In this document: one piece after another, positions 7,514-25,901 of the stretch | Position numbering within the stretch: the first letter of the stretch is position 1 | How the letters are laid out: every line of letters starts with the position of its first letter | Assembly: GCA_944383965.1 (NCBI GenBank) | Contig: CALWRQ010000016.1 | Location: 1 to 34,791, forward strand | Reading direction: 5' to 3' | Source: an uncultured Lachnospiraceae bacterium | GTDB lineage: Bacteria; Bacillota; Clostridia; Lachnospirales; Lachnospiraceae | Length of the DNA stretch: 34,791 nucleotides | Position numbers and translations under genes: made by a program | Notes under the pieces: generated by a model | The model's database searches: none | What the model was told of the DNA's origin: nothing | The model's input: only the letters and a program-made list of their open reading frames with translations

Positions 7514-7542
7514 GATTGTCTATTTTGACGGAAAGGGGAACT

Positions 7543-8421: not shown

Positions 8422-8445
8422 GATCCAATCCGAGTGCTTTTCCTC

Positions 8446-8474: not shown

Positions 8475-8493
8475 AGAGACATGAGGTGACAAC

Positions 8494-9111: not shown

Positions 9112-9124
9112 TCCGAACAGAATC

Positions 9125-9161
9125 AAAGAAGCTGATGCCTTTTCTCTGCATCAGCTTCTTT
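9125..9161. terminator. Bidirectional terminator between DUF1836 and flavodoxin genes
   Basis: A perfect 14-bp stem pairs AAAGAAGCTGATGC (9125-9138) with its complement at 9148-9161, with a 9-nt loop. A T-run follows on the plus strand and the A-run on the left serves the minus strand. It closes the DUF1836 gene and the convergent MarR-flavodoxin operon. Confidence 0.9.
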
Positions 9162-9168
9162 TTCCGTT

Positions 9169-10114: not shown

Positions 10115-10142
10115 AGCTCCTCCCGATTTTGCTGTTTTTCTC

Positions 10143-10171
10143 ACTATACCCTATTTATTTGACAAAGTCAA
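10143..10171 (-). promoter_or_regulatory. Promoter and MarR operator of the MarR-flavodoxin operon
   Basis: On the minus strand TTGACT (10166-10171), a 17-bp spacer and TATAGT (10143-10148) form a strong promoter. The 13-bp palindrome TTGAC-AAA-GTCAA at 10159-10171 overlaps the -35 box. This is the expected place for a self-repressing MarR dimer. Confidence 0.65.
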
Positions 10172-10246
10172 GTATTTTGGGAAGAAAAATCCGGCTGCTG
10201 GCCGGTCTTTTCTTCTATCATGCGGAAAGGACTCTTTCCGGAACGC

Positions 10247-10564
10247 CTATTTCTCTGCCTCCGGCTCCTGCTCCCCCTCTTCCGCGATCCTGGCAAAAAC
10301 CATATCATAGCCGTCATTTCCGTAGTTCAGGGAGCGATTTACCCGGCTGATCGTCGCTGTGGAAGCTCCCGTTCTGGATGCGATCTCCAGATAAGTCTTT
10401 TCCTCCCGCAGCATCTTGGCCACTTCATAGCGCTGGGACAGGGAAAGCAGCTCGTTCACCGTACAGACATCTTCAAAAAACATATAACATTCATCCATAT
10501 TTTTCAAAGTCAGAATCGCCTGAAACAGGTGATCCACCGCTTCTGTCTTGATTTTCTTGTTCAT
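10247..10564 (-). CDS. yerC: YerC/YecD-type TrpR-like regulator
   Basis: A 105-residue protein of the YerC/YecD family, related to the tryptophan repressor DNA-binding fold. The helix-turn-helix reads SQRYEVAKMLREEKTYLEIASRTGASTATISRVNRSLNYG, closely matching the family consensus. An acidic tail of about 12 residues ends the protein. The family is common in Firmicutes as a single small gene and its regulon is poorly known. The gene is followed on the same strand by the MarR operon, but about 75 bp plus the latter's own promoter separate them. Confidence 0.88.
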   Translation of the reverse strand: MNKKIKTEAVDHLFQAILTLKNMDECYMFFEDVCTVNELLSLSQRYEVAKMLREEKTYLEIASRTGASTATISRVNRSLNYGNDGYDMVFARIAEEGEQEPEAEK

Positions 10565-10676
10565 TGGCTTTCTTTTCCCTTCAGTCTGTTTTATATTTCA
10601 TCCGAAGATGATCCATATTCTTTCTGATTTTAACATACTAAAGCCATAAAGTCCACCCTAAATTGAGACAACTTTC

Positions 10677-11486
10677 TTAAGAAAAGATGAATTTTTCGAT
10701 TACCCAAGCCACTCCGTCGTCATTATTGGATTTCGTGACAAAATCTGCCGCCTGTCGAACCGGAAGAACCGCATTCTCCATGGCCACTCCCAGACCGGCA
10801 TACCGGATCATGGACAGATCGTTGTACCCGTCTCCGCAGGCAATCATCTGCTCCCTGGAAAGTCCCATGACCTCCAGCAGCCGTTCCAGAGACTGGGCCT
10901 TGTCGATTCCCCTGGGAAGGATCTCCAGAAAATACGGTTCAGACCGATATACGCTGAAGTTTTTACCTAAAGCCGCTTTCACCTTCGGCTCTACGGTAGC
11001 CAAATAATCTCCCTCCTCCAGCATGATGAATTTGGGAACTGCAAAATTCACATAATCCTCCATATGTTCCACCTGCCGGATCTCCATGGAATTGATCTTT
11101 CCTTCCAGGCCTGCATATTCGTTTTCCCGGTTGTTGGTAATGATCTCCTCTCCTTCATAGGTAAGGATATCCACCTGATTGTCTCTGGCCAGTTCAATGA
11201 TCCTTCGGTTGCTTTCTGCAGGAAGAAGTCTGGAAAACACCGTTTTCTCCTCGGCGCAGCCGATGATCATGCCTCCGTTGTAGGAAAGAATGTAGCCCCC
11301 GTAATTCTTCAGTTCCAGTTCTTCTGCCAGATGACGGATCCCCTTGGTCGGGCGGCCGGATGCCAGTACTACCTTTTTCCCCATCTGCTGCATTTTCATC
11401 AGGGCCTCCTTTGTTCTCGGAGTAATGACCTTGTCCTTATTGGTGAGCGTGCCGTCCAGATCCAGCACGATTACTTCATATTCCAT
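10677..11486 (-). CDS. Cof-type HAD-superfamily sugar-phosphate phosphatase
   Basis: A 269-residue HAD hydrolase of the Cof/IIB (YidA-like) group. Motif I is LDLDGTLTNKD with the nucleophile Asp near residue 8. Motif II is VLASGRPTKG and motif III/IV is CGDGYNDLSMI, with the metal-binding aspartates. The large cap between motifs II and III is typical of enzymes that remove phosphate from sugar phosphates or flavin-type substrates. The start at 11486 follows AAAGGAG; the frame is open further upstream but has no ribosome site there. The precise substrate cannot be read from sequence. Confidence 0.88.
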   Translation of the reverse strand: MEYEVIVLDLDGTLTNKDKVITPRTKEALMKMQQMGKKVVLASGRPTKGIRHLAEELELKNYGGYILSYNGGMIIGCAEEKTVFSRLLPAESNRRIIELARDNQVDILTYEGEEIITNNRENEYAGLEGKINSMEIRQVEHMEDYVNFAVPKFIMLEEGDYLATVEPKVKAALGKNFSVYRSEPYFLEILPRGIDKAQSLERLLEVMGLSREQMIACGDGYNDLSMIRYAGLGVAMENAVLPVRQAADFVTKSNNDDGVAWVIEKFIFS

Positions 11487-11569
11487 CCTGCTTCTCCTTT
11501 GTTTCCTCATGATTTTCCGGTATTTAGTGTACGATAGATCCGTGGAAAATGCAACGGGATATACAGGAA

Positions 11570-11599
11570 AAGAGCCGCAGATCTGCACCTGCGGCTCTT
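11570..11599 (-). terminator. Terminator of glucarate dehydratase gene
   Basis: An 11-bp stem, AAGAGCCGCAG (11570-11580) with its complement (11589-11599), is followed on the minus strand by a T-run. It sits 14 bp after the gudD stop. Confidence 0.8.
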
Positions 11600-11612
11600 A
11601 AAACCCCCTCCT

Positions 11613-12962
11613 TTAACGTACCAGGCAGGGCTTTTTGGAATCAAATTTCCAGTTGGGAATCAGATACTGCATTGCCATGGCGTCATCCCTGTCGTGACTG
11701 GGAAGCTGTCTGTACAGCTTATTGGCTTCCATGACCTTATCCATGTCAATGGTAACTCCCATTCCGGGCTTATCCGGAACTTCCAGATATCCGTTGCGGA
11801 TCTGGGGAGTATCCTTCAGCAGGTTCTGGCCGTCCTGCCAGATCCAGTGGGTATCCAGCGCCGTGGGATTTCCCGGGGCTGCTGCCGCCACATGAGCGAA
11901 AGCTGTCAGAGTAATGTCAAAATGGTTGTTGGAATGGCTTCCCCAGGTCAGGCCCCAGTCATTCAGGATCTGCGCCATCCGCACGCTTCCTCCGAAGCCC
12001 CAGAAATGAGGATCTGCCAGCACGATATCCACAGATTTCAGCGCTGCAGCATGATAGAACTGCCTCCAGTCCGTAGCGATCATATTGGTCGCTACGGGAA
12101 GCTTCACTGCATTTTTGAACTCTGCCATTACTTCTCTGCTGGAATAGCCTGCTTCCGGTCCGCAGGGATCTTCGATATATGTAAGGATTCCTTCCATGGG
12201 ACGGCACAGGCTGATGGCCTCTTCCAGGCTCCACGCGCCGTTGGGATCAATGTTGATCCGGCCGTTGGGGAACGCCTTTTTCAGAGCGCGGACCGCTTCC
12301 ATCTCTTCCGTTCCTTCCAGTACTCCGCCCTTCAGCTTGAAATTGCGGAATCCATATTTCTCATGAAGCACCTGAGCCTGCTCCACGATCTGATCAGGAG
12401 TCAGCATTTCCTTCCTGCGCATCCGGAACCAGGGATCGGTGCTGCTGCTCTCATCCAGATATGCCAGCTCCGGTGCCTTTTCCTTATCGCTTACGTAGAA
12501 CAGGTATCCCAGCGTTTCCACTTTGTCCCTCTGCTTGCCGTCACCCAGCAGCTCGCACATGGGAAGATCCAGATACTGTCCCAGCAGATCCAGCAGGGCA
12601 CACTCAATCGCCCATTCGGCCTTTACCACAAATTTCAGTTTGCTGATATCCAGACTCTGGATTCCTTCTCCGTCATCCTCTTTCGCCCGTCTGCTGGCTT
12701 TGTGGATCGTATCCAGGATCTTGCGGTAGGTTCCCACCTGCTTGCCGACCACCAGAGGGATGCAGCTCTCCAGAGCCTCACAGGTGTAGTCTCCCCCATG
12801 AATCTCTCCGATTCCCGTATGTCCCGCACTGTCCTTCAAAATCACCAGGTTTCTTGTAAAAAACGGTGCATGAGCTCCGCTCAGCGTCATCAGCATGCTG
12901 TCCCTTCCGGCCACAGGAATAACCTGCATTTCCGTTACTACCGGCGTTCCCTTTTCCATCAT
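11613..12962 (-). CDS. gudD: Glucarate dehydratase
   Basis: A 449-residue enolase-superfamily enzyme that removes water from D-glucarate (or L-idarate) to give 5-keto-4-deoxyglucarate. Diagnostic residues are visible. The base motif KLK is at 209-211. Metal ligands are Asp239 (INIDPNGAW), Glu264 (YIEDPCG) and Asn293 (ATNMIATDW). The His/Asp pair side has Asp317 (ADPHFWG) and the GSHSNNHFDI segment around 341-350. The length matches E. coli GudD. AAGGAGG lies 7 nt upstream of the chosen ATG. No aldolase, kinase or transporter of the pathway is adjacent. The divergent LysR gene is the likely regulator. Confidence 0.95.
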   Translation of the reverse strand: MMEKGTPVVTEMQVIPVAGRDSMLMTLSGAHAPFFTRNLVILKDSAGHTGIGEIHGGDYTCEALESCIPLVVGKQVGTYRKILDTIHKASRRAKEDDGEGIQSLDISKLKFVVKAEWAIECALLDLLGQYLDLPMCELLGDGKQRDKVETLGYLFYVSDKEKAPELAYLDESSSTDPWFRMRRKEMLTPDQIVEQAQVLHEKYGFRNFKLKGGVLEGTEEMEAVRALKKAFPNGRINIDPNGAWSLEEAISLCRPMEGILTYIEDPCGPEAGYSSREVMAEFKNAVKLPVATNMIATDWRQFYHAAALKSVDIVLADPHFWGFGGSVRMAQILNDWGLTWGSHSNNHFDITLTAFAHVAAAAPGNPTALDTHWIWQDGQNLLKDTPQIRNGYLEVPDKPGMGVTIDMDKVMEANKLYRQLPSHDRDDAMAMQYLIPNWKFDSKKPCLVR

Positions 12963-14700: not shown

Positions 14701-14930
14701 CTTCTGCCCTCACCTCCATCCCGTCGTTTTCTCCAGTGTAAGGGAAAATTGTGATAAATCTGTGTATACTTTCTTTTATTTTCATAATTTTTCCATTCCT
14801 TTCCGCCGAGAGCTTCTGCCGCGGATCCTCAGGGCCGGCTGGCCCCCTTCCGTTTGATCCCTGCAGGATCTGCACACCGCCTTCCCGTTCCCCACATACC
14901 ATGTAGTATCATCGCTGAAAGGAGCATCCC

Positions 14931-15434
14931 ATGAAAAAAAAGAAATTATCTTTGTCTCTTTCTCTCACTGCCGCTTCCCTGGCCTTCTGTCTGGCCGCAG
15001 TCTCTCTCTTTGCCTGCTCTTCCCGGGAAACGGGCCTGACTCCCGTAACTCTCAACGAAGTGGCCCATTCTGTCTTCTACGCCCCTCAGTACGCTGCCAT
15101 CGAACTGGGATATTTTGAAGACGAAGGCATTGAGCTGACCCTGATCAACGGAGGCGGGGCAGACAAAGTCATGACTTCCCTGATATCGGGAGATGCCCAG
15201 ATCGGGTTTATGGGCTCCGAAGCCGGAATCTACGTATATCAGCAGGGCCTGGAGGACTATGCGGTCAATTTTGCTCAGCTCACCCAGCGGGCAGGCAATT
15301 TTCTGGTAAGCAAAACCCCGTCTTCGTCCTTCTCCTGGACGGACCTGAAAGGAAAAACCGTGCTGGGCGGTCGGGCCGGCGGCCGCCCATACAGGATGGT
15401 ACGATTTCTCTCCGGATTTTTATACTGTCGGTAA
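14931..15434 (+). pseudogene. 5' half of interrupted NMT1/SsuA-like ABC substrate-binding lipoprotein
   Basis: This is the N-terminal part of a substrate-binding lipoprotein. It has a lysine-rich start, a hydrophobic stretch and the lipobox SLFAC at about residues 24-29. The domain starts TPVTLNEVAHSVFYAPQYAAIE and includes GGGADKVMTSLISGDAQIGFMG, typical of the NMT1/SsuA/TauA family. Host sequence ends at 15382 inside the codons for RAGG. The last 17 residues up to the stop come from inserted DNA. Fusing 14931-15382 to 25337-25901 gives an exact 338-codon frame. AAAGGAG precedes the ATG. No permease or ATPase gene adjoins either half, so this was an orphan binding protein. The fragment alone should not bind ligand. 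Confidence 0.9.
15372..15382 (+). repeat. attL core (left 11-bp direct repeat)
   Basis: CGGGCCGGCGG is shared exactly with 25326-25336; the next bases differ on both sides (T and C here, G and T there). Its centre is the palindrome GCCGGC. The surrounding left half-site CTGGG (15363-15367) comes from the host gene and pairs with CCCAG in the right flank (25342-25346) when attB is rebuilt. Confidence 0.85.
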
Positions 15435-15485
15435 AATTATCCAAAAACTCTTCTGTTCAGTTCAGAAAACACGACATAATTACCG

Positions 15486-15538
15486 ATTTTTGGGTATTTT
15501 TGTGAACCGGATTCTGATAAAATTTAAACTATCAGAAT
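15486..15538 (+). promoter_or_regulatory. Control region of the element's importer operon
   Basis: Two ATTTTTG direct repeats lie exactly 10 bp apart (15486-15492 and 15496-15502), one helical turn, as AraC-type response regulators often bind. The second runs into a possible -35, TTGTGA (15500-15505). After 17 bp comes TTTAAA (15523-15528), a modest -10. A perfect 9-bp inverted repeat, ATTCTGATA and TATCAGAAT (15511-15519 and 15530-15538), spans the -10. The half-site TTCTG...CAGAA also occurs at 15451-15467. This suits activation by the element's own regulator plus a second control layer. Confidence 0.45.
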
Positions 15539-15557
15539 ATGAACGGAGGGATTCATT

Positions 15558-16727
15558 ATGAAAAAAAAGTTAGCACTGCTGTTGGCGTGCACCATGATGC
15601 TTGGTATGACCGCCTGTTCCGGCGGCGGCACTGCATCTACCACTGCTGCTCCCGCTGAAGCGGAAACCACTCAGGCTGCTTCAGAAGCGGAAGGAAGCGA
15701 GGCCGCGTCCGGTGATATGGAGGCCCTGATCGAAGCCGCAAAGGCGGAAGGGGAACTTACGGTTTACGGTTCCTGCGAAGAAGAGTATCTGTCTGCCGCC
15801 TGCCAGAATTTTGAGAAGCTCTACGGGATCAAAGTAAAATATCAGAGACTTTCCACCTCGGAAGTATACACCAAGGTATCCGAGGAAGGAGGAAAGCCCT
15901 CTGCTGATGTATGGTTCGGAGGAACCACCGATCCTTACAACGAGGCCGTTGCCGACGGTCTGCTGATGCCTTATGAAGCCATGAACGCAGTAAACCTGAT
16001 CAGTGAGGATTACAAAGATCCTACCAACTGCTGGTACGGCATCTACAAAGGAATCCTGGGTTTCATGGTAAACACCGAAGAGCTCACCCGTCTGGGTCTG
16101 GAGGCTCCTCATACCTGGGACGATCTGACCAAAGAGGAATACAAGGGACTGATCATGATGTCCAACCCCAATACCGCCGGTACCGCTAAGCTGGTCATCA
16201 ACACCATGGTTCAGATGAAGGGCCATGATGAAGCCATGGAATATTTCAAAGCGCTGGACAAGAATATTGCACAGTACACCAAATCCGGTTCCGGTCCTTC
16301 CAAGATGGTAGGCCCCGGCGAATGTGTGATCGCCATCGGTTTCCTGCATGACGGTATTTACCAGATCCTTCAGGGCTATGACAACATCGAGCTCATCGTT
16401 CCTGAGGACGGAACCTCCTTTGAGATCGGCGCCACCGCTATTTTCGAGGGCTGCGCTCATCCCAATGCTGCAAAGCTGTGGATCGAATACGCTCTGTCTC
16501 CTGACTGTGTCGACCACGCCAAGGAGAATGGCTCCTACCAGTTCCTGGTGATCAGCAATGCGACCCAGCCTGAGGAAGCTACCCAGTTCGGTCTGGATAT
16601 GAACAATACCATTGACTACGATTTTGAGGATGCCAAGAACAACATCGCTCAGTATGTGGAAGACTTCTTCGCAGCTCTGGGAAGCTCTTCTGACAGTGCG
16701 GATTCCAGCCGTTTCCTGACGGAATAG
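15558..16727 (+). CDS. ABC importer substrate-binding lipoprotein (AfuA/FbpA family)
   Basis: A 389-residue extracellular binding lipoprotein. The signal peptide ends in a lipobox, GMTAC, with Cys20, followed by an Ala/Thr/Glu-rich linker to about residue 55. The domain begins GELTVYGSCEEEYLSAACQNFEKLYG and contains SADVWFGGTTDPYNEA, typical of the family that includes ferric-binding FbpA and sugar-phosphate-binding AfuA. Iron binders carry a Tyr-Tyr pair where this protein has IGFLHDG (His264, Asp265). That argues against Fe3+ and is compatible with an AfuA-like phosphorylated ligand. ACGGAGGG is the ribosome site. It is the first gene of the element's importer operon. Confidence 0.88.
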   Translation: MKKKLALLLACTMMLGMTACSGGGTASTTAAPAEAETTQAASEAEGSEAASGDMEALIEAAKAEGELTVYGSCEEEYLSAACQNFEKLYGIKVKYQRLSTSEVYTKVSEEGGKPSADVWFGGTTDPYNEAVADGLLMPYEAMNAVNLISEDYKDPTNCWYGIYKGILGFMVNTEELTRLGLEAPHTWDDLTKEEYKGLIMMSNPNTAGTAKLVINTMVQMKGHDEAMEYFKALDKNIAQYTKSGSGPSKMVGPGECVIAIGFLHDGIYQILQGYDNIELIVPEDGTSFEIGATAIFEGCAHPNAAKLWIEYALSPDCVDHAKENGSYQFLVISNATQPEEATQFGLDMNNTIDYDFEDAKNNIAQYVEDFFAALGSSSDSADSSRFLTE

Positions 16728-16834
16728 GTTTCCGTCTTACGGAAACGGTCCGATGCCGGAGAAAAATAACCCCGGCGCCCCGCCCATGAAATGAAAAGGC
16801 GCTGCGAATATGCGTTTTCCGGCATTTCGCAGCG
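16728..16834 (+). terminator. Hairpins between binding-protein and permease genes (partial terminator)
   Basis: Directly after the stop codon an 8-bp hairpin (16728-16735 with 16739-16746, GTTTCCGT arm) is followed by a second one, a 9-bp stem (16800-16808 with 16826-16834, CGCTGCGAA arm), and then TCTTTCC. The T-tract is weak. The likely effect is partial termination and protection of the upstream message, so that binding protein is made in excess over permease. Confidence 0.55.
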
Positions 16835-16880
16835 TCTTTCCTGTTAAAAAACAATGCACCAACAGAAAGGGGGCCTTTTT

Positions 16881-18590
16881 GTGGCCAGAAATCAAAGCGC
16901 CCGCCTGGAGCGCAAAAAATTCTTCTCAGACCCCATCCTGATCAGCATGATCGCAGTGCTGCTCATCTTCCTGGCTCTGTTCATCCTCTATCCTCTGCTC
17001 ATGCTGCTGGTGGACAGCTTCTATTCAGAGGAAGGATTTACGCTGGATGTATTCAAACGGGTCTTAAGTCTGGAACGATTCCGGACTGCATTCAAAAACA
17101 CGCTGGTCCTGGGTGTGATCACCGGACTTGCTTCTACTGCGATCGGTCTTCTGTTTGCTTACGTGGAAGTGTATGTAAAGCTGAAAACAAAGATTCTGGA
17201 AAAGCTGTTTGCAGTAGTTTCCATGCTGCCGGTGGTTTCTCCCCCCTTCGTGCTGTCCCTGTCCATGATCATGCTGTTCGGGCGAAGCGGAATCATCACC
17301 CGTTCCCTGCTGGGGATCTATGACTCCAACGTGTACGGCCTGAAGGGCATCGCCATTGTACAGACCCTGACCTTTTTCCCGGTCTGCTACCTGATGCTGA
17401 AAGGACTGCTGAAAAATATCGATCCTTCTCTGGAAGAAGCCACCAGAGATATGGGAGCCTCCCGCTGGAAAGTCTTTACCAGTGTGACCTTCCCCCTGCT
17501 GCTCCCCGGACTGGGAAATGCCTTCCTTGTAACCTTCATAGAGTCTGTAGCCGACTTCGCCAATCCCATGCTGATCGGCGGTTCCTATGACACGCTGGCC
17601 ACCACCATTTATCTGCAGGTGACCGGAGCCTATGATTCCACAGGCGCTGCAGCCATGTCCGTTGTGCTGCTCTCTCTGACCATGGTGCTGTTCCTGATCC
17701 AGAAATATTATCTGGAAAAGAAGACAGCGGCTACCCTTACGGGAAAGGCTTCCAGAATGCGCATGCTGATCGAAGACAGGAGCGTGACCGTTCCTCTGAC
17801 CATTATCTGTACCCTGGTTGCCGCCTACGTGATCCTTATGTACATCATGGTTCCTTTCGGAGCCCTGTTCACTCTCTGGGGCCGTGACTACAGCCTGAGT
17901 CTGAAATGGTTCCAGTATATGTTCAAGACCAGCGGTCTGAAAGCATTCAAGGATTCCTTCCTGCTTTCTCTGATCGCAGCTCCTCTCACCGCGTTCCTGT
18001 CCATGGTGATTTCCTACCTGGTTGTAAAAAAGCGGTTTAAGGGCAGAAGCTTTATTGAATTTGTGTCCATGCTGGCCATGGCAGTTCCGGGAACCGTTCT
18101 GGGTATCGGATACATCCGCGGCTACGCCAACGGATTATTCCGCACCGGAATTATGAGCGGCCTTTACGGAACCGGTCTGATCCTGATCATCGTATTTATT
18201 GTAAGAAGTCTTCCTACCGGAACCAGAAGCGGTATCTCCGCCCTGCGTCAGATCGACAAATCCATCGAGGAATCCGCTTATGACATGGGCGCCAACTCCG
18301 CCCGCGTATTCATGACCGTAACCCTGCCTCTGATCAAAGATTCCTTTTTCAGCGGCCTGGTCACCGCATTTGTACGGAGCATTACGGCAATTTCAGCCAT
18401 CATCCTTCTGGTAACGCCGGACTTCCTGCTGATCACCTGCCAGATCAATGAGCAGGCGGAAAAGGGAAATTACGGTGTGGCCTGCGCCTATGCTACGGTC
18501 CTGATCCTCATTACATACGGAGCCGTGCTGATCATGAACCTGCTGATCGGCCGCTTCGGAACCAGCAGAAAAATACGGGATATCCAGTAA
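16881..18590 (+). CDS. ABC importer fused double permease (FbpB/AfuB type)
   Basis: A permease of about 569 residues with two homologous halves, so one polypeptide supplies the whole membrane channel. About 12 hydrophobic helices are visible. Each half carries an EAA loop that docks on the ATPase: SLEEATRDMGASRWKVFTSV in the first half and SIEESAYDMGANSARVFMTV in the second. The GTG at 16881 is preferred over an in-frame ATG at 16854 because GAAAGGGGG lies 7 nt before the GTG, whereas the ATG lies upstream of that site. Fused permeases are usual for FbpB, AfuB and related importers. Confidence 0.92.
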   Translation: MARNQSARLERKKFFSDPILISMIAVLLIFLALFILYPLLMLLVDSFYSEEGFTLDVFKRVLSLERFRTAFKNTLVLGVITGLASTAIGLLFAYVEVYVKLKTKILEKLFAVVSMLPVVSPPFVLSLSMIMLFGRSGIITRSLLGIYDSNVYGLKGIAIVQTLTFFPVCYLMLKGLLKNIDPSLEEATRDMGASRWKVFTSVTFPLLLPGLGNAFLVTFIESVADFANPMLIGGSYDTLATTIYLQVTGAYDSTGAAAMSVVLLSLTMVLFLIQKYYLEKKTAATLTGKASRMRMLIEDRSVTVPLTIICTLVAAYVILMYIMVPFGALFTLWGRDYSLSLKWFQYMFKTSGLKAFKDSFLLSLIAAPLTAFLSMVISYLVVKKRFKGRSFIEFVSMLAMAVPGTVLGIGYIRGYANGLFRTGIMSGLYGTGLILIIVFIVRSLPTGTRSGISALRQIDKSIEESAYDMGANSARVFMTVTLPLIKDSFFSGLVTAFVRSITAISAIILLVTPDFLLITCQINEQAEKGNYGVACAYATVLILITYGAVLIMNLLIGRFGTSRKIRDIQ

Positions 18591-18635
18591 AACCCAAGAT
18601 CCCGGTAAACTCCGGGCAGAGAGGAGATATGAAAA

Positions 18636-19712
18636 ATGGAAAAACAGAAAAAAGGCGTGCGCCTGGAACATATTTCTAAAATCTACAACGATCCCAAGAC
18701 AGGGAAAGAATTCTATGCAGTAAAGGACACCACCCTGAATATTGAACCCGGCACTTTCGTGACCCTGCTTGGACCTTCCGGCTGCGGAAAGACCACCACC
18801 CTCCGTATGATCGCAGGTTTTGAAAGTCCTGATGAAGGGGAAATCTACCTGGGAGAAGAACCGATCAACAGCCTGACTCCCAACAAAAGAGACACGGCCA
18901 TGGTATTCCAGAGCTATGCCCTTCTTCCCCACTACAACGTATTTGACAATGTGGCTTACGGTCTTAAGATCCGCAAGCTGCCCAAGGATGAGATCCACGA
19001 GCGTGTGATGAACATGCTGAAGCTGGTGGAGATGGACGGAATGGAAACCCGTATGACGAACCAGCTTTCCGGCGGCCAGCAGCAGCGTGTCGCCCTGGCA
19101 AGAGCCCTGGTGATCGAGCCCAGCGTACTGCTGTTTGATGAGCCCTTAAGCAATCTGGATGCAAAGCTGAGAATCACCATGAGGACGGAAATCCGCAAGA
19201 TCCAGCAGAAGGTGGGCATTACCGCCATTTACGTAACCCACGATCAGTCGGAGGCCATGAGTATTTCCGATAAGATCATCATCATGAGCAAAGGCCGCGT
19301 AGAGCAGATCGGAACTCCCAGAGAGATCTATTACCATCCCTCTTCAAAATTCGTAGCCGACTTTATCGGTGAAGCAAACTTCCTGGATGCCAGCGTAAAA
19401 TCCGTTTCCGGCGATAAAGCACTGATCCAGATCACCGGCAAGGAACTGGAAGTGAATAACTTTGCCAATGCCAAAGCCGGTGATTCCGCTACTCTGGTGA
19501 TCCGTCCCGAAGGCGCCAGTCTGGCAGAAAAAGGAGTTCTGGAAGTAACCGTGACCCTTTCCACTTTCATGGGCTCCTACCAGTATTATCAGGCCATGCT
19601 GGGGAATACGGAAATCCAGATTACCGATTACAATCCCATCAACCGCAGGATCTATGAAGCCGGCGAAAAGGCATATCTCGATTTTGATCCCAGAGGGGTT
19701 TACATTCTGTAG
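18636..19712 (+). CDS. ABC importer ATPase (FbpC/AfuC/PotA type)
   Basis: A 358-residue ATP-binding subunit. Walker A GPSGCGKTT is at residues 46-54. The Q-loop reads VFQSYALLPH, the ABC signature LSGGQQQRVALARAL, Walker B and D-loop LLFDEPLSNLDA, and the H-loop YVTHDQSEA. A TOBE-type C-terminal domain of about 110 residues follows IGEANFLDA; in this family it may sense ligand or metal. GAGAGGAG precedes the start. The gene lies 45 nt after the permease gene and is the third gene of the operon. Confidence 0.95.
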   Translation: MEKQKKGVRLEHISKIYNDPKTGKEFYAVKDTTLNIEPGTFVTLLGPSGCGKTTTLRMIAGFESPDEGEIYLGEEPINSLTPNKRDTAMVFQSYALLPHYNVFDNVAYGLKIRKLPKDEIHERVMNMLKLVEMDGMETRMTNQLSGGQQQRVALARALVIEPSVLLFDEPLSNLDAKLRITMRTEIRKIQQKVGITAIYVTHDQSEAMSISDKIIIMSKGRVEQIGTPREIYYHPSSKFVADFIGEANFLDASVKSVSGDKALIQITGKELEVNNFANAKAGDSATLVIRPEGASLAEKGVLEVTVTLSTFMGSYQYYQAMLGNTEIQITDYNPINRRIYEAGEKAYLDFDPRGVYIL

Positions 19713-19737
19713 CCTTACTGGTAAAATTTCGAATAGT

Positions 19738-19762
19738 GCGGACCGTCTGTGATGCGGTCCGC
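19738..19762 (+). terminator. Hairpin between the importer and sensor gene sets
   Basis: An 8-bp stem, GCGGACCG (19738-19745) with CGGTCCGC (19755-19762), and a 9-nt loop follow the ATPase stop. Only TTTAC follows, so this is a weak terminator. It probably lowers transcription from the importer genes into the regulatory genes. Confidence 0.5.
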
Positions 19763-19789
19763 TTTACAGAAGTTTAGGGGGAAATCCGG

Positions 19790-20845
19790 ATGAATAAAAT
19801 CAGGGGGCAGAAACGAATCCGTTTTTTGAGGCTGCTCTGCAGAGCGGCGCTTCTCACATCGGCAGCACTGATCGGTCTGGGCTGCGCGGGAGGGAAGGAA
19901 CAGGTTTCCGGCGGGGAGCTGGTGATCTACTGCCCCCATCCTCAGGATTTTATTGATCCCATCGTGTCAGAATTTGAAGCCAGGACCGGAATTTCCGTAC
20001 TGGTATGTTCCGGCGGTACCGCAGAGCTCCTGGAACAGGTGGCTGCAGGCGGCACCCCGCCCTGCGACATTTTCTGGGGCGGTTCTCTGTCCATCACGTC
20101 TCCCCGGAAGGAGCTGTTTGACCCTTATGTCAGCGTCAATGAACCGCAGATCCGGGAGGAATTTCAGAATCGTGAAGGAAATATGACCCGCTTTACCGAT
20201 GTTCCCAGTGTGATTATGATCAACACCAACCTGATCGGAGATATCCCTGTGGAAGGCTATGAGGATCTGCTCCAGCCGGAGCTGAAAGGGCAGATCGCCA
20301 TGTGTGATCCGGCCGCCTCTTCCTCCGCCTGGGAGCATCTGATCAATATGCTTTATGCCATGGGGGACGGAGATCCGGAGCAGGGCTGGGATTATGTGGA
20401 ACGTTTCTGTGAAAATCTGGACGGAAAGCTCCTGGAACGTTCTTCTCAGGTCTATGAAGGCGTAGCCAGAGGACAGTATGCTGCAGGCCTGACCTTTGAA
20501 GAAGGCGGGGCCCGGTATGCCGCTTCAGGAAGCCCGGTCCGCCTGATTTATATGAAGGAAGGCGTGCTCTCCACACCGGATGTGGTCTGCATCGCAAAGA
20601 ATTCAGCTCACAGGAAAGAGGCCCGGCAGTTTGTGGATTTCGTCACCGGGTATGACGCCCAGTCGGTGATTGCCGGACAGCTGAACCGCCGTTCCGTACG
20701 CACAGACGTGGATGAGCCGGAAGGGCTTCCTGACAAAAGCGGCCTTCCTGCGATTCAGGATGATCTGGAGCTGGTGACAGCGCGCAGGGAGCAGTGGCTG
20801 GAGCATTTTTCCAAACTATATGAAAAGGGGCTTTCATCAGAATGA
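19790..20845 (+). CDS. Substrate-binding protein dedicated to the sensor kinase (HptA-like)
   Basis: A 351-residue binding protein of the same broad family as the transport binding protein of this element, but clearly diverged. The N-terminus is basic, then hydrophobic, ending at LIGLGC with Cys32, an imperfect lipobox, so it is either a lipoprotein or membrane-anchored. The domain starts GELVIYCPHPQDFIDPIVSEFEA and has CDIFWGGSLSI. No Tyr-Tyr iron motif is seen; the position reads GLTFEEGG. It overlaps the kinase gene by 4 nt (ATGA), which points to a sensory partner of the kinase rather than an import component, as in Staphylococcus HptA. The ligand is inferred only. Confidence 0.8.
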   Translation: MNKIRGQKRIRFLRLLCRAALLTSAALIGLGCAGGKEQVSGGELVIYCPHPQDFIDPIVSEFEARTGISVLVCSGGTAELLEQVAAGGTPPCDIFWGGSLSITSPRKELFDPYVSVNEPQIREEFQNREGNMTRFTDVPSVIMINTNLIGDIPVEGYEDLLQPELKGQIAMCDPAASSSAWEHLINMLYAMGDGDPEQGWDYVERFCENLDGKLLERSSQVYEGVARGQYAAGLTFEEGGARYAASGSPVRLIYMKEGVLSTPDVVCIAKNSAHRKEARQFVDFVTGYDAQSVIAGQLNRRSVRTDVDEPEGLPDKSGLPAIQDDLELVTARREQWLEHFSKLYEKGLSSE

Positions 20846-22542
20846 AAAAAGAGCGGTATTTCAGAGAAGAACTGCAGCGGCTGTTTATCGGGCTTGCCAT
20901 TGTGCCGGCGGTGTCTATTACCCTGATCTGCTGCTTTATTTTTATGGGGCTTCTTCTGAAAGGACGCTGGGAAGAAAATACGGCACAGGGAGACTACACA
21001 GCCAAACAGCTGGAACAGATTGTTACCACCTGCAGTCAGGAACTGGAGCGGCTGGAATCGCTGGAAGGCCTGTTTGACGGAGAACCGGATGCCGCCAAGC
21101 GGGCCCGCATTTTCGAAGAAATCTACCGTTCTACCTCCGGTCTTGAATACGAGGCCGATTTTTATATGCTGGATGCCAGCCGTCAGGTGATCCTGACGGA
21201 CGGAGACGAAGCGCCTGATTTTCTCCGGATTGCCCCAGGCATATCCTGGGGAATTTTCGGAAGTATGGAAGCCAGCCCGGGGAAAACCGTATTCCGTCTT
21301 CAGAATGGTTACCGGCAGAAGGGAGCGGCTCTTGCCCTGGGCCGGGCCGTCTGTGCCGGAGGGCGGCTGCAGGGCTATCTGATCTTTCTTCTGAACGACA
21401 GTTCCCTGCAGCCCATACTGGAGCATTCTGCAGCTCAGACCGTAGTCACAGATCCATTCGGATGGGCCTTTTTCAGCAGCAGCTCCGCCTTTCTGACCGA
21501 CAGCCATCAGCTGTCCCGGGAAATCCGGGAAGGAGATACCTGGCTGACCTGCAACCGCCAGTTCTATCTTCTGTCCGTCCGTTCTGCCTGTCAGGGAAAT
21601 CTTCTGGTCTATGTCCTTTCAGATATTCACAATATTGTGATCTCCCTGGCTCTCAATACCGCTCTGGTCATTACCGCCCTGCTGATCATGACTCTGTGGG
21701 TCTTTGCCGCCACAAGAAAAGTAACCGAGAAAAAAACGGAAGATTTCTACCGGATCCTGGACGTCATGGATCAGGGAAAAAAGGGAAATCTGGACTGCCG
21801 GGTCCAGGTGGAGAGCAACAATGAATTCCGTACCATTGCCGATGCCTACAACGGAATGATCGGCAGTCTGAGTCAGCAGATGGAAAATAATCGCCGTATG
21901 GCTGAACTGGTTGCCATCTCTCAGAACCGGCAGCTGGAATCCCAGTTCAATCCCCATTTCCTCTATAATACCCTGGAAACCATCCGGTATATGTGCCGGA
22001 TCGAGCCGGAAACAGCATCCCGGATGATCTTCTGTCTGTCCGGTCTCCTTCGCTACAGTCTGGACAGCAGCCGGACCGAGGTTCCCCTGAAAGAAGATCT
22101 GGAGCATCTGAACAATTATCTGACCATTCTGAAATACCGGTTCGGCACAAGATTGTGCTGCACCATGGATGTGGAGGAACGTACTCTGGACTGCATGACT
22201 CCCAAGCTGGTCCTGCAGCCCATGATTGAAAATGCCGTCCGGTACGGTTTCGGAGACCGGGAAACACTGTCCGTGGAACTGAAAGCCTATATTCACGAAG
22301 ATCATCTGGTGATGATCTGCCGGGATGACGGAGCCGGAATGACTCAGGCCGCTCTGAGCGAGCTCAGCCAGCTTCTGGAGCAGAAGGAAAACAGAAGCCG
22401 CCATTCCGGACTTTACAATATCCACCGGAGGATCCAGCTGCTCTACGGGCATCCTTACGGGGTGGAAATACGAAGCACAGAGGGCCGCGGCACCACACTG
22501 ATCATTACTCTTCCGGCCCGCAGAGAGGAGAACATATGCTGA
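20842..22542 (+). CDS. Sensor histidine kinase (YesM/HptS-like)
   Basis: A 566-residue membrane kinase. Membrane helix 1 is at about residues 14-38 and helix 2 at about 266-291, with an extracytoplasmic domain of about 225 residues between them. A HAMP linker follows (NLDCRVQVESNNEFRTIADAYNGM). The H-box QFNPHFLYNTLETIRYM carries His372, and the N-box is LQPMIENAVRYG. DDGAGM and a GLYNIHRRI G-box complete the ATP site. This is the LytS/YesM kinase class that pairs with AraC-type response regulators. Overlaps with the upstream binding protein (4 nt) and the downstream regulator (7 nt) tie the three into one signalling unit. Confidence 0.93.
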   Translation: MKKERYFREELQRLFIGLAIVPAVSITLICCFIFMGLLLKGRWEENTAQGDYTAKQLEQIVTTCSQELERLESLEGLFDGEPDAAKRARIFEEIYRSTSGLEYEADFYMLDASRQVILTDGDEAPDFLRIAPGISWGIFGSMEASPGKTVFRLQNGYRQKGAALALGRAVCAGGRLQGYLIFLLNDSSLQPILEHSAAQTVVTDPFGWAFFSSSSAFLTDSHQLSREIREGDTWLTCNRQFYLLSVRSACQGNLLVYVLSDIHNIVISLALNTALVITALLIMTLWVFAATRKVTEKKTEDFYRILDVMDQGKKGNLDCRVQVESNNEFRTIADAYNGMIGSLSQQMENNRRMAELVAISQNRQLESQFNPHFLYNTLETIRYMCRIEPETASRMIFCLSGLLRYSLDSSRTEVPLKEDLEHLNNYLTILKYRFGTRLCCTMDVEERTLDCMTPKLVLQPMIENAVRYGFGDRETLSVELKAYIHEDHLVMICRDDGAGMTQAALSELSQLLEQKENRSRHSGLYNIHRRIQLLYGHPYGVEIRSTEGRGTTLIITLPARREENIC

Positions 22543-23312
22543 GGATACTGATCGCCGAAGATGAAGATATTATCAGAAAGGGACTGGTCTATACCGTAGA
22601 CTGGCTTTCCATGGACTGCGTCGTGGTCGCTGAAGCCTCCAACGGAAAGGAAGGTCTGGAAAAAATCCTTGAGTACCGGCCGGATGTGGTGATTGCCGAC
22701 ATCTGTATGCCTTACCTGGACGGCATCGAAATGATCCGCCAGGCATCGGAATCCGTAAAATTCGTCAGTCTGATTCTGACCAGCTATGCGGAGTTTGACT
22801 ACGCCTGCAGGGCAATCGACGCCAGAGTAAGGGAATATCTGCTGAAACCGGTGGACGAGGAAAAGCTGGCCCGGATCATGGAGAAGATCTCCGCAGAGCT
22901 GGCCGCTGCCCGCCAGGCTGAGCACAGCCGCGAACAGGCCGAGCCGGAAGACGGAATCCTGAACCTGGAATACTACATGACTCTGGACCGGTCTGAAAAA
23001 GGCTATGTTTCCCAGGCTCTCAGCCGGATCCGCACCGGATACTCCGGGAAACTGAGCATCGAGTCCATCTCCGAAGAGCTGGGGGTCAGCGCCAGTTATT
23101 TAAGCCGGAAATTCAAAGAAGTCACCGGCCAGACTTTTCTGGATTTTCTCAACCGCTACCGGGTCCAGCAGGCAATCCTGCTGCTGGGAACGGGAAAATA
23201 CCGCATCAATGAAATTTCCGACGCCACCGGCTTTTCTGACTACAAGCATTTCTGTTCCGTATTCAAAAAATACACCCTGAAATCTCCTACCAAGTTCATA
23301 AAAGGCATCTGA
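22536..23312 (+). CDS. AraC-type response regulator (YesN/HptR-like)
   Basis: A 258-residue regulator. The receiver domain (1-120) has the acidic pocket AEDED, phospho-acceptor Asp55 in VIADICMPYLDG, the switch threonine in LTSYAEFDYA and the conserved Lys in LLKPVDE. The C-terminal AraC domain (about 155-258) has two helix-turn-helix units: SIESISEELGVSASYLSRKFK and INEISDATGFSDYKHFCSVFKK, ending P-T-K-F. It lacks the extra middle domain of long YesN proteins. It should be phosphorylated by the kinase encoded just upstream. The 10-bp-spaced repeats before the importer operon are candidate binding sites. Confidence 0.93.
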   Translation: MLRILIAEDEDIIRKGLVYTVDWLSMDCVVVAEASNGKEGLEKILEYRPDVVIADICMPYLDGIEMIRQASESVKFVSLILTSYAEFDYACRAIDARVREYLLKPVDEEKLARIMEKISAELAAARQAEHSREQAEPEDGILNLEYYMTLDRSEKGYVSQALSRIRTGYSGKLSIESISEELGVSASYLSRKFKEVTGQTFLDFLNRYRVQQAILLLGTGKYRINEISDATGFSDYKHFCSVFKKYTLKSPTKFIKGI

Positions 23313-23344
23313 ATCCGTTCTCTTTCCGGAAGCCGAACATAGAA

Positions 23345-23386
23345 CAGGCTGCCTGTTTCATACACTGATATGAAGCAAGCAGCCTG
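23345..23386 (+). terminator. Long hairpin after the response regulator gene
   Basis: CAGGCTGC (23345-23352) pairs with GCAGCCTG (23379-23386). The stem then continues, with one mismatch and one wobble pair, for about 17 bp in all around a 6-nt loop. There is no T-tract, so this may be an mRNA stabiliser or a weak terminator between the signalling genes and the recombination genes. Confidence 0.5.
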
Positions 23387-23388
23387 AG

Positions 23389-23574
23389 GTGATTTCCCTG
23401 CACGGCGGAAAAGCAATTCATTGTCTGACCGTTCCGAATGGAACCGACCCTTCTGAGGCCTTACGCAGCAAAGAAGAGCTCAACCGGAACGGAACTCTTG
23501 TGATCACATTTGTGGAAGGTCCTGCTCCTGCAAAAATCGGGATCCGGGCCATACTCCGGAATCACTGTCTGTAA
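23389..23574 (+). CDS. Small unknown protein upstream of the recombinase
   Basis: An open frame of up to 61 residues starts at a GTG (23389), or with GAGGTGAT as ribosome site perhaps at the in-frame CTG at 23398. The protein contains LHGGKAIHCLTVPNGTDPSEALRSKEE-type mixed sequence and a beta-like stretch, NGTLVITFVEG. It has no signal peptide or membrane segment. I do not recognise the family. Its position, 45 bp ahead of the recombinase in the same direction, is where small accessory or directionality factors of serine recombinases are often encoded. That role is a guess, and the weak start leaves open that it is not a gene. Confidence 0.4.
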   Translation: MISLHGGKAIHCLTVPNGTDPSEALRSKEELNRNGTLVITFVEGPAPAKIGIRAILRNHCL

Positions 23575-23619
23575 ATTTTCTTCCCGGTTTTCACCTCGCT
23601 GGCGAAAGGAGGACTGCAG

Positions 23620-25287
23620 ATGCAGGAATTCAGAACCGGTACGCCTCCGACTGTGGCAGGCTATGTACGTCTCTCAAGAGACGATAACAGGCGGAACTAT
23701 TCCTCCATCGAAAATCAGAAAGCCATCATCCGGAAATTCGCAGAACAAAATCATATGACCCTGTATGAGATTTATGAAGATGACGGCTTCTCCGGCTATT
23801 CATTCGACCGTCCCGGATTCCGGGAACTGACGGCCCATCTGGAGTGCGTTGATGTGATTGCTGCCAAGGACCTTTCCCGGATTGGCCGCCACAACGCAAA
23901 AGTACTCCTCTTTCTGGAAGAAATGGAACAGCTGGGAAAGCGGATCATCCTTATTGACGATCATTACGATTCCCTCTATTCGGATGACGATATGATCGGT
24001 ATCAAAACCTGGGATAATGAACGTCATGTCAAAACTACCAGCAGAAAGGTAAAACGGATCAAAAAAATGGAGCAGGAAAACGGCACTCTGAAATCGTCCC
24101 CTCCTTTCGGTTATATCCGTCATCCGCTGAACCGGCAGCTCATCCTGATTGATCCGGAAGCCGCCTCCATTCTGAATCTTGAAAAAGAACTGTATCTGGA
24201 AGGCAACGGAATGCGCAGGACCGCTCAGATCCTCAACGCCCGGGGAGTCCCCACTCCCACCATGCTTCAGAAGGAGCGGTACGAGGCCCTTGGCCTTCCC
24301 TATCAGCGTCAGATATCCTCTGCCTGGAGCAGCAGCATGGTCAGAGACACTCTTTTCAATGATTATCATAACGGTGTGCTGCGCACTCACAAACGGGAAC
24401 GCACTTCCATCAACGGCCCGGACCGAAAGGTTCCCAGAAATCAGCAGTATGTCTTTCCGGACCATCATCCCAAAATATTTGACGATGCCACTTCCCGTCT
24501 TCTCCTGGAGGTAAAGGAAAGCCGGTGCCGATGCCGATACCGGGGGCAGAAAAAACATATCAACCTCTTTTCCGGCTGTCTCTACTGTGCGGACTGCGGC
24601 TGTAAGCTCACAGCCGTCAATCGGCCCGGACGGGCAAAATACTACATCTGCGGGACCTACAATAAAAAAGGAAAGCAGTTCTGTGATGCTTCCCACATGA
24701 TCCGTGAAGACACTCTCATCCATGCCCTGCTCACGTACCTTGCTCTATGCAGGCAATCCCTTGCAGATGTCCTGGACAGACTGGAGCTCTCTGATCTGAA
24801 GCAGGACGTCTATTCCGTCCGGGACAGCATCCGAAGAACGGAAGCTGAGCTGGATCGGGTCCGGAGTGAGCTGAATACTCTGCTGGATCAGAAGATCCGG
24901 GAGCTCGCGGCCAGACCTTCCATGAAAGATCTGATCGAAGAATCTTTTTCTGCCCTGCAGGCAGACCGGATGGAACGGATCTGTGCTCTGCAGCAGAAGC
25001 TGGATACACTGTCCGGCACCTCTTCAGAATGCAGCTCTGCCTCTGATCCCGTTCTCTCCCGGACCCCTTCCCGTATTCTGGACAGCATTCTGGAGCAGAA
25101 GACCTTAGACCGGGCGGATATTGAAATCCTGGTTCAGAAAATCGTTGTAGACCGTCAGGGAAATGCGGATATCTATCTGAAATACAATCTGGACCCCCAT
25201 GAAACGCCGGCCATTGGGACTGCAAAATCTTCCACAGGACCGGCAAAGTCCGCTCCCGGGCATACCCGCTCCGGCATGGATCGGTAA
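23620..25287 (+). CDS. Large serine recombinase (TnpX-like integrase of the element)
   Basis: A 555-residue large serine recombinase. The resolvase-type catalytic domain (about 10-150) has VAGYVRLSRDD with nucleophile Ser19, DGFSGYSFDRPGF, and the DLSRIGRHN arginine motif. A Recombinase domain follows, with GYIRHP and NARGVPTPTM stretches. A zinc ribbon has Cys320, Cys323, Cys326 and Cys328, then YYICGTYNKKGKQFC. A coiled-coil region (about 395-470) is typical of those that set integration direction. AAAGGAGG lies 7 nt before the ATG. The enzyme is intact and sits 38 bp from the right core repeat, so it is the probable integrase and excisionase of this element. Confidence 0.95.
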   Translation: MQEFRTGTPPTVAGYVRLSRDDNRRNYSSIENQKAIIRKFAEQNHMTLYEIYEDDGFSGYSFDRPGFRELTAHLECVDVIAAKDLSRIGRHNAKVLLFLEEMEQLGKRIILIDDHYDSLYSDDDMIGIKTWDNERHVKTTSRKVKRIKKMEQENGTLKSSPPFGYIRHPLNRQLILIDPEAASILNLEKELYLEGNGMRRTAQILNARGVPTPTMLQKERYEALGLPYQRQISSAWSSSMVRDTLFNDYHNGVLRTHKRERTSINGPDRKVPRNQQYVFPDHHPKIFDDATSRLLLEVKESRCRCRYRGQKKHINLFSGCLYCADCGCKLTAVNRPGRAKYYICGTYNKKGKQFCDASHMIREDTLIHALLTYLALCRQSLADVLDRLELSDLKQDVYSVRDSIRRTEAELDRVRSELNTLLDQKIRELAARPSMKDLIEESFSALQADRMERICALQQKLDTLSGTSSECSSASDPVLSRTPSRILDSILEQKTLDRADIEILVQKIVVDRQGNADIYLKYNLDPHETPAIGTAKSSTGPAKSAPGHTRSGMDR

Positions 25288-25325
25288 GAGACGTCTGCCG
25301 TAAAGCGGGGTTCATCGTGTGGGGG

Positions 25326-25336
25326 CGGGCCGGCGG
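25326..25336 (+). repeat. attR core (right 11-bp direct repeat)
   Basis: A second copy of CGGGCCGGCGG. On the left is element sequence (GTGTGGGGG, 25317-25325), on the right host sequence (TATGCCCCAG). Joining the two element flanks gives a candidate attP with arms GTGTGGG and CCCATAC around the same GCCGGC centre. Confidence 0.85.
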
Positions 25337-25901
25337 TATGCCCCAGATGGTCTTTGAATACATTCTGAAGAAAAACGGAATTGATCCGGCCGCGGACCTT
25401 ACCATTGACCAGAGTATTTCCTTCGGCCTCACCGCTGCCGCTTTTCCGGGAAGTCAGGCCGACTATACGGTGGAATTCGAACCCTTTGCCACCGCCCTGG
25501 AACAGCAGGGGCAGGGATTTGTCGTTGCCTCCCTGGGTGTGGATTCCGGCTATGTCCCCTATACGGCCTACTCTGCCCGGCGGTCCTATATAGAAGAAAA
25601 TCCGGATATGATTCAAGGTTTTACCAATGCCATACAGAAAGGTCTGGAGTATGTCAGCTCCCATTCCGCAGAGGAAATCGCAGAGACCATCCATCCCCAA
25701 TTTCCCGAAACGGACCTTTCTTCCCTGACCACAATCGTGGACCGGTATAAAAGTCAGGATACCTGGAAGGAAGACACCATTTTCGCAAAAGAAAGCTTTG
25801 ACCTGCTCCAGAATATTCTGGAGGAAGCCGGAGAACTGGAGAAGCGGGTTCCCTACGAGGATCTGGTGACTACGGAGTTTTCCGAAAAAGCTGCCGATTA
25901 A
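25326..25901 (+). pseudogene. 3' half of interrupted NMT1/SsuA-like substrate-binding lipoprotein
   Basis: This is the C-terminal part of the split binding protein. It resumes GGMPQMVFEYILKKNGIDPA after the core repeat and runs through VEFEPFATALEQQGQGFVVASLG, SGYVPYTAYSARRSYIEENPDM and a C-terminal helix region to a stop at 25901. These are normal second-lobe features of NMT1/SsuA binding proteins. It has no signal peptide. A GTG at 25317, within the element, could start a useless cytosolic fragment. No frameshift or internal stop is present, so the insertion is probably recent or the gene is periodically restored. A terminator follows directly. Confidence 0.9.

Follow-up and report, generated by a model that had tools for sequence, protein, structure and literature searches.

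A putative skin-like serine recombinase element with an importer and sensor set in a ytlA-like gene of a Lachnospiraceae bacterium

The window, the whole stretch of 34,791 nucleotides analysed here, contains an insertion of 9,954 bp (15383–25336) in a gene for a binding protein of 338 codons. This 9.95-kb insert is a site-specific large serine recombinase (LSR) element that splits the gene. The split gene is probably ytlA, the binding-protein gene of a sporulation ABC transporter, and not part of a rival nutrient importer. Likely, the insert is a skin-like element that is excised from the ytlA-like gene in the mother cell and carries a PhnSUT-like importer together with a sensor set. All genes, promoters and core sites of the window given below are located on the plus strand.

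When the 5' piece (14931–15382) and the 3' piece (25337–25901) of the split gene are joined in silico, a reading frame of 1,017 nt results (338 residues and the stop codon) with the run GGRAGGMPQM spanning the join. The 339 codons including the stop that the initial annotation had counted are thereby reproduced, and precise removal of the element would regain the full reading frame. Both halves contain NMT1/THI5-like domains according to Pfam. An exact 11-bp repeat, CGGGCCGGCGG, forms both ends of the element (attL core, 15372–15382; attR core, 25326–25336). It is the longest match between the ends (150 nt of each end compared) and the exact crossover is located somewhere within it. The LSR of 555 amino acids (23620–25287) comprises Resolvase, Recombinase and zinc-ribbon domains (Pfam) and is positioned inside the insert next to the right end. 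Furthermore, empty attB sites are present in relatives. Of nine genomes of the genus, three (the window genome G000, G003 and G004) have the gene split at one and the same codon, and four have it whole (G001, G002, G006 and G007; 77–83% identity). The initial annotation had proposed a search of relatives for the uninterrupted 338-residue protein and for the same cassette at other sites; uninterrupted orthologues were found in these four genomes, and the boundary recurs in further species.

The importer consists of a PhnS2-like extracellular binding protein (15558–16727), a PhnU2-like double permease (16854–18590) and a PhnT2-like ABC ATPase with a TOBE domain (18636–19712), each assigned with Pfam and NCBIfam. 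It is followed by a second binding protein (19790–20845; Pfam, NCBIfam), probably the receptor of the sensor, by a histidine kinase (20842–22542; His_kinase and HATPase_c, HAMP under the cut-off) and by a response regulator with an AraC-type DNA-binding domain (22536–23312). The NCBIfam models of PhnS2, PhnU2 and PhnT2 (TIGR03261/3262/3265) reach 183, 283 and 368 bits against cut-offs of 393, 593 and 458, respectively. Judged by these scores, the importer is related to the 2-aminoethylphosphonate transporter PhnS2/U2/T2 without being a member of it. Complete importer, sensor set and intact LSR had all been listed in the initial annotation and all are found by Pfam, but the earlier inventory overlooked a conserved ORF of 61 codons (23389–23574), which related elements also have next to their LSR. 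PhnSUT operons were also detected in eight loci (L081–L088) without an LSR or a target match to the queries, and confinement of this cargo to mobile elements was rejected.

The target gene is present in 214 of 397 genomes of the family. No fewer than 28 of these carriers have it interrupted, with pieces flanking the same codon (in 17 carriers they share a contig, in 11 they lie on different ones). This number is a lower bound: 34 suspects among the matches listed were searched again, G000 and G003 were added, and genomes with a single strong match were left out of the second search. Four further genomes (G261, G170, G367 and G385) with only one piece, ending at the site, were counted apart. 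In G353, G261 and G456, which are metagenome-assembled genomes, the contigs end at the core. Left out of the count were G253, which has small gaps on a contig with runs of N, and G027, G089 and G369 with whole copies (in G369, a separate 3' piece is also found where a contig ends). The interruptions fall at four codons, three of them recurrent, and some genes are hit twice. Two main sites, A and B, each have their own LSR clade; the LSR of the window belongs to the site-A clade. Other genera carry related LSRs at the codon that is split in the window, and two loci from different genera (L075 and L076) have 2,140 nt in common at 97%. Other elements at the codon of the window carry a ParE-type toxin gene, a glycosyltransferase gene or a TraG-type conjugation gene. 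In a scan of the window LSR against viral contigs, no match was confirmed. Not the binding-protein gene but the ATPase gene next to it is split in another family. On our reading, related islands and other mobile elements share the ytlA-like gene as a docking site across the family.

The pieces of the split genes keep their reading frames. Pairwise dN/dS among three split genes is 0.05–0.115, a low ratio that is also expected if the insertions are recent. One stop within an aligned piece was observed in 4 of 38 sets scanned (G062, G212, G235 and G260). The second search of the suspects gave more stops, probably from alignments that run beyond the junction.

The promoter region of the split gene points to sporulation. 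A sigma-K-type promoter (14876–14903) reads AC-N17-CATACCATG, one mismatch from AC-N16/17-CATANNNTA. With at most one mismatch, the latter pattern is present in 50 of 62 upstream regions of the target gene and in 11.3% of 397 control genes (p = 6e-29); the controls are mechanically called ORFs that include at least one target copy (L090), and start codons were picked by script, some of them wrongly. The known mother-cell gene spoIVA has the same −10 type in 14/20. Because related sequences make up the 62 upstream regions as well as the spoIVA comparison and the set of 22 small ORFs described below, the p-values overstate independence. SpoIVA is co-present in 209 of the 214 carriers of the target gene (p = 7e-58), compared with 9 of 16 for a control cargo gene (p = 0.59). 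The target gene is thus nearly confined to spoIVA-bearing genomes.

The genes ytlA, ytlC and ytlD are listed among the core sporulation genes of sigma-K (PMC3416734). In 15 of 29 loci from outside the family, the ORF that comes next after the target gene encodes an ABC ATPase. In the genus, an ATPase-permease operon (Pfam ABC_tran and BPD_transp_1) is located apart from the target gene, which in the lineage of the window has no adjacent ATPase or permease gene. Upstream of the split gene is the motif CATANNATRNAGTATC (14895–14910), which is also found at the ATPase-permease operon. It has ten matches in seven of the nine genus genomes, seven ahead of the ATPase gene and three ahead of the target, and none for the reversed control; the pattern was derived from the two promoters that it finds, and the target copies of G001, G003, G004 and G006 deviate. 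A search of solved structures with the target half gave no match at E ≤ 1e-5. Promoter, spoIVA association and shared motif agree, and these sequence signs suggest that the target is a mother-cell sporulation gene, presumably orthologous to ytlA of B. subtilis. Given these signs, the insertion would cost vegetative cells little, and what is regained by excision would be a function in sporulation.

The small ORF overlooked before (23389–23574; 61 residues, GTG start) is preceded by a sigma-E-type promoter, ATA-N17-CATACACT (23339–23366). An ORF of ~60 residues next to the LSR is present in 22 of 23 site-A elements, ten of these ORFs being seeds of the search model, and in none of seven site-B elements. 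The site-A element without it is that of G296. Promoters of the sigma-E/K type precede 15 of the 22 small ORFs compared with 16 of 457 control genes (p = 4e-15). The remaining seven, without a full match, include that of G004, whose cargo is the same as in the window. For L204, the small ORF was called wrongly, within its own −10 box, and the sigma-K match is off the conserved place. Searches of Pfam and PHROG with the small ORF gave nothing convincing, the best matches of its alignment among solved structures are designed proteins, and a fold search with its model had no match at E ≤ 0.001. The two structure searches thus link it to none of the known directionality factors. The ~60-residue protein appears to be undescribed and is a candidate excision (recombination directionality) factor. 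Near nine site-B LSRs and three others, no small gene with a mother-cell promoter was found under the filters used. An exact sigma-K match within 300 nt is present at none of 29 LSR genes; a match with one mismatch was observed within 110 nt of four.

These features suggest the following course of events. In growing cells and in the forespore the element would stay integrated, and importer and sensor set would be expressed as an ordinary operon. Activation of the small ORF in the mother cell would be due to sigma-E, or in some relatives to sigma-K, and its protein would act as the directionality factor that turns the LSR to excision between attL and attR. Excision would rebuild ytlA as its own sigma-K-type promoter fires, so that the binding protein of an ABC transporter could be made late in sporulation. 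The insertion would cost almost nothing, since the mother cell is doomed and the spore inherits the element in its integrated form.

Alternatively, the ytlA-like gene may merely be dispensable and several LSR families may have converged on it as a harmless target, with excision as an ordinary reversal that has no developmental timing. The gene can indeed be lost (it is absent from 47 of 256 spoIVA-bearing genomes of the family), site B also holds large elements with siphovirus-type or MobL relaxase genes, which have life cycles of their own, and no small gene with a mother-cell promoter was found near the nine site-B recombinases examined. This explanation is nevertheless rather unlikely, as the pieces retain their frames and low dN/dS and the site-A elements have the conserved small gene, mostly with mother-cell-type promoters. 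Furthermore, the split ATPase gene in another family belongs to the same operon, which indicates that docking reflects a property of the operon and not of one sequence.

The same cargo in identical gene order is present at the same site in three species (G000, G003 and G004). Its dS (0.63–1.12) is close to that of the neighbouring CofE gene (0.77–1.37), a pattern that fits long residence better than a recent exchange. A single continuous residence does not follow from this, because dS of the cargo is below that of the pieces of the split gene (1.09–1.84) and the three LSRs come from different branches. One ancestral insertion in this clade, domesticated and immobile, with the split gene as a pseudogene, would agree with the gene order and the divergence of the cargo. 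It is very improbable, since the three species have kept the cargo but differ by replacement of the LSR and of the short arm at either end, the pieces are not decayed and the LSR reading frames are intact. The exchange of one uptake ability for another, proposed in the initial annotation because importer and sensor are inserted into a gene for a transporter-type binding protein, was rejected as scarcely credible, as the cargo of other elements at this codon has nothing to do with uptake and the target shows a sigma-K-type promoter, near-confinement to spoIVA genomes and a motif common to the ytlCD-like operon.

Mother-cell excision of a skin-like element is therefore retained as the preferred explanation. 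A wider proposal is held with less confidence, but is on balance favoured. The sporulation transporter operon would be a docking hub of the whole family, used at no fewer than four ytlA codons and, in another family, at one ytlC codon by different LSR lineages. It would serve a pool of elements shared across genera, made up of small islands with metabolic or defence genes, conjugative elements and prophages, in which LSR-attP modules are exchanged around inherited cargo. A new family of ~60-residue directionality factors would tie excision at site A to the mother cell, and where a gene is interrupted more than once, several recombinases would repair it within a single doomed cell. If this is true, rearrangement of sporulation genes is common in gut Lachnospiraceae, beyond Bacillus and C. 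difficile, and one mother-cell gene is a nearly cost-free dock through which complete nutrient, defence and phage cargo passes between genera. The candidate factor family, the LSRs and the natural attB/attP pairs would then offer many new switchable recombinase pairs, and the timing of element exit would become directly testable in cultured strains.

The initial annotation could name no class for such a unit. Skin, SPbeta/spsM, gin and yin are sporulation-gene intervening elements, and the element of the window probably belongs to this class. In C. difficile skin, the 3' part of sigK directly follows the LSR (CD1231), and a directionality factor of 72 aa (CD1234) under sigma-E/SpoIIID control drives excision (PMC5025042). 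The arrangement in the window is similar: an LSR element splits a presumed mother-cell gene, the 3' part of which directly follows the LSR, a small protein is encoded inside behind a sigma-E-type promoter, and the spore lineage would bear no cost. In C. difficile, a sigma factor is split; here it is a transporter gene, the cargo is a metabolic operon, the candidate factor has 61 aa and excision is predicted. Like gin in gerE of Bacillus cereus, the element is not a prophage, but gin has 28.6 kb and three recombinase genes (PMC5595907), compared with 9.95 kb, one LSR and one conserved small gene here. Unlike gin, relatives of the window element are located at the same codon in many genera. Convergence of diverse LSRs on one attB in a coding sequence was also described by Durrant et al.; the targets named in the available part of that report (magnesium chelatase, prolyl isomerase and competence genes) include no sporulation or binding-protein gene (PMC10083194). 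The target of yin, yabG of Clostridium botulinum, is controlled by sigma-K, and a small directionality factor of yin, with a promoter putatively of the sigma-K type, was predicted (PMC10747680); a sigma-K-type promoter of the target and a candidate small factor are predicted here too. The prophage-like yin was reported from one isolate, whereas at least 28 of the 214 carriers of the family have the ytlA-like gene split, at one or another of several codons.

The initial annotation had described a binding-protein gene split by a large serine recombinase (LSR) element that carries an importer and a sensor set, and this description holds. Joining window positions 14931–15382 and 25337–25901 restores a protein of 338 residues, and an 11-bp end sequence is common to both sides of the insert (15383–25336). 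The insert contains a PhnS/U/T-like importer, a second binding protein, a histidine kinase, an AraC-type regulator and an LSR of 555 residues. The NCBIfam scores of the importer are below the cut-offs of 2-aminoethylphosphonate importers. The GC content of the element (0.52) and of its flanks (0.50–0.51) is alike.

The motif AC-N16/17-CATANNNTA is present with at most one mismatch upstream of 50 of 62 copies of the target gene, whole or split. Only 11.3% of the 397 further ORFs from these loci have it, and shuffles give a mean of 5.0/62. Exact −10 boxes are located 34–46 nt ahead of the target start in 31 of 42 cases. According to PMC3789822, sigma-E and sigma-K of C. difficile share the same −10, whereas the −35 is ATA and AC, respectively. 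For comparison, 14 of 20 spoIVA upstream regions contain this −10 type, and 4 of 20 have a full AC-type match with no more than one mismatch. Target gene and SpoIVA occur together in 209 of 397 family genomes (p = 7e-58); 5 genomes have only the target gene, 47 only SpoIVA and 136 neither of the two. The cargo PhnS gene shows no link to SpoIVA (9/16).

In a phylum sample, the target gene was matched in 73 of 199 genomes (E<=1e-30). An ABC-ATPase ORF follows it in 15 of 29 loci, two of these ORFs being truncated, and the promoter is found with at most one mismatch in 16 of 28 scored loci. In the genus of the window, the ATPase–permease operon lies apart from the target gene; in Lachnoclostridium sp. 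An14 the two share a contig and are separated by more than 50 kb. The exact promoter precedes this operon in 6 of 9 loci. Furthermore, CATANNATRNAGTATC has ten matches in seven of nine genus genomes, by coordinates seven ahead of the ATPase gene and three ahead of the target gene, and its reversed control has none in these nine genomes. PMC3416734 counts ytlA, ytlC and ytlD among the core sporulation genes of sigma-K, and PMC3789822 places ytlC in the sigma-K regulon of C. difficile. For YtlCDA, PMC11466899 states that the substrate is unknown. Promoter, SpoIVA, ATPase–permease and sigma-K list together point to a probable ytlA, and the target is therefore named ytlA-like here.

Among nine genus genomes, whole copies of the gene, which the initial annotation had proposed to seek in relatives, are present in four (G001, G002, G006 and G007). 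The gene is split at the identical codon in three (the window genome, An14 and G004), a 48% identical homologue is present in G005, and G008 has no match. Pairwise dN/dS of the three split genes is 0.07–0.09 for the 5′ piece and 0.05–0.115 for the 3′ piece; whole genes give 0.04–0.11 and 0.055–0.12 for the same regions. The split pieces appear to evolve like a working gene, which is supportive but not decisive because synonymous sites are near saturation.

All three split genomes contain the six-gene cargo in unchanged order. The LSRs of the other two are 62% and 41–44% identical to that of the window and all three are on separate branches of the LSR tree; the short arms at both element ends differ as well. 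Synonymous divergence in the cargo (0.63–1.12) is similar to the values for the neighbouring CofE gene (0.77–1.37) and lower than those for the target's own pieces (1.09–1.84). In the simplest picture, the cargo has long been at this codon and the LSR-att module was swapped in some lineages. Alternatively, the cargo may have reached the codon by separate arrivals in the three genomes. The An14 element has an additional block between cargo and LSR (L016 9727–13526) with a choline-binding-repeat protein (Pfam) and, by eye, a histidine kinase and a response regulator.

A close LSR (E<=1e-100) is present in 15 of 397 family genomes. In ten loci of other genera (L071–L080) the 3′ part of the target directly follows the LSR. 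Six of these loci also contain the 5′ part, whereas in the remaining four (G155, G234, G130 and G265) it is found at another place in the genome. A search with the whole protein found the target gene in 214 of 397 genomes. In a rerun on the 34 genomes whose gene appeared broken, doubled or weak, together with the window genome and An14, at least 28 genomes have target pieces on both sides of one codon: 19 at site A (near codon 151, as in the window), nine at site B (near 195), three at site C (near 250) and one at site D (near 97). The pieces are on a single contig in 17 of the 28 and on separate contigs in 11; four further genomes have a single piece only. G280, G260, G235 and G263 are interrupted at least twice, with one more recombinase ahead of the first piece in G263. 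Among the best 80 named loci of a 3′-part search, nine appear split, including An14 and [Clostridium] symbiosum ATCC 14940 (L162), with only the 3′ part lying within the extracted locus in L155, L162, L181, L184 and L189; in L197 the gene is cut by the contig end. At the level of sequence, insertion and the docking-gene pattern can be regarded as established. Some MAG contigs end at or a few bases from the junction (L121, G353:C42; L127, G261:C101; L266, G456:C3), which could reflect integrated and excised forms together in a sample.

In the LSR tree (36 rows, some of them long branches), the 16 rows of site A make up one side of a branch with 100/100 support, and so do the nine rows of site B. 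Pfam confirmed recombinases at site B (6), site D (1), ytlC (2) and site C (1). Site-B pieces are 48 kb apart in G054 and 40 kb in G315, and only about 2.4–4 kb in G280, G260 and G232. Site-B elements encode a methylase (G054), a MobL relaxase (G315) and siphovirus-type proteins (G360) according to Pfam. An IMG/VR contig encodes a site-B LSR of 69% identity, and the 15.8 kb examined of this contig contain no match to the target. Site-A cargo is varied: NifH, two nitrogenase-component-1-type (NifDK-like) proteins and a FecCD-type importer (L129 of G235, 5620–12717), a LysR-amidohydrolase-DcuC set (L168), a two-component system with an FtsX-type ABC transporter (L204), HPr and antiterminator genes (L080), DUF1538 and P-II (L073), a ParE-type toxin gene (L071), a glycosyltransferase (L078) and a TraG-type gene (L072). 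In six site-A elements the LSR frame is open through attR into the target 3′ part, giving fused ORFs of 811–863 residues (L016 14126–16717, L071 3105–5540, L072 3121–5562, L162 8072–10570, L204 8075–10570 and L230 8132–10570). The C-terminus of the recombinase would differ here once integrated.

In a distant family (f12), an LSR element of ~2.2 kb splits the ytlC-like ATPase gene at codon 88–90 in G495 and G409 (L264 and L265), next to an intact binding-protein gene. In a third genome, G456, the contig ends exactly at this split point. The L264/L265 element carries a Ppx/GppA-looking gene (by eye) and its LSR is oriented against the host gene.

Of 23 site-A elements, 22 have an ORF of ~60 residues upstream of the LSR (23389–23574 in the window), in 21 cases no more than about 0.4 kb away. 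The model of this ORF was built from 10 of the 22, and none of seven site-B elements contains it. No Pfam or PHROG family matches the ORF. AlphaFold predicts a beta-alpha-beta-alpha fold (mean pLDDT 77) with no convincing PDB match. A full sigma-E/sigma-K-type promoter precedes 15 of the 22 ORFs (11 E, 4 K) and 16 of 457 control ORFs (p = 4e-15); the CATANNNT box precedes 19 of 22 versus 84 of 457. Within 300 nt of the LSR genes, exact sigma-K matches are absent (0/29) and E-type matches occur in 7 of 29. The latter are 245–296 nt upstream, so these promoters sit before the small ORF and not before the LSR itself. The sigma-E-type promoter of the window (23339–23366) overlaps TAGAACAGGC and lies inside the inverted repeat CAGGCTGC/GCAGCCTG. 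TAGAACAGGC fits a SpoIIID consensus, WWRRACARNY.

The loci L075 (G296) and L076 (G130), from two genera, have 2,140 nt in common at 97%, and agree at 90.6% over 2,454 nt surrounding the LSR. The small ORF is present upstream in G130 and was not found in G296, despite the very similar LSR. If it is the excision factor, the G296 element should be locked in.

A literature search covering few subscription journals found neither insertions in ytlA or ytlC nor such elements in Lachnospiraceae. The best-supported reading is that the element in the ytlA-like gene is probably excised in the mother cell. For the skin element of C. difficile, PMC5025042 describes an LSR that every cell produces and a small factor, controlled by sigma-E and SpoIIID, that confines excision to the mother cell. 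The site-A arrangement, with a mother-cell-type promoter before most of the small ORFs and no exact sigma-K match before the LSR genes, parallels that of skin. PMC10747680 likewise gives the proposed factor of yin a putative sigma-K promoter, comparable to the sigma-E/K-type promoter before the candidate factor of the site-A elements.
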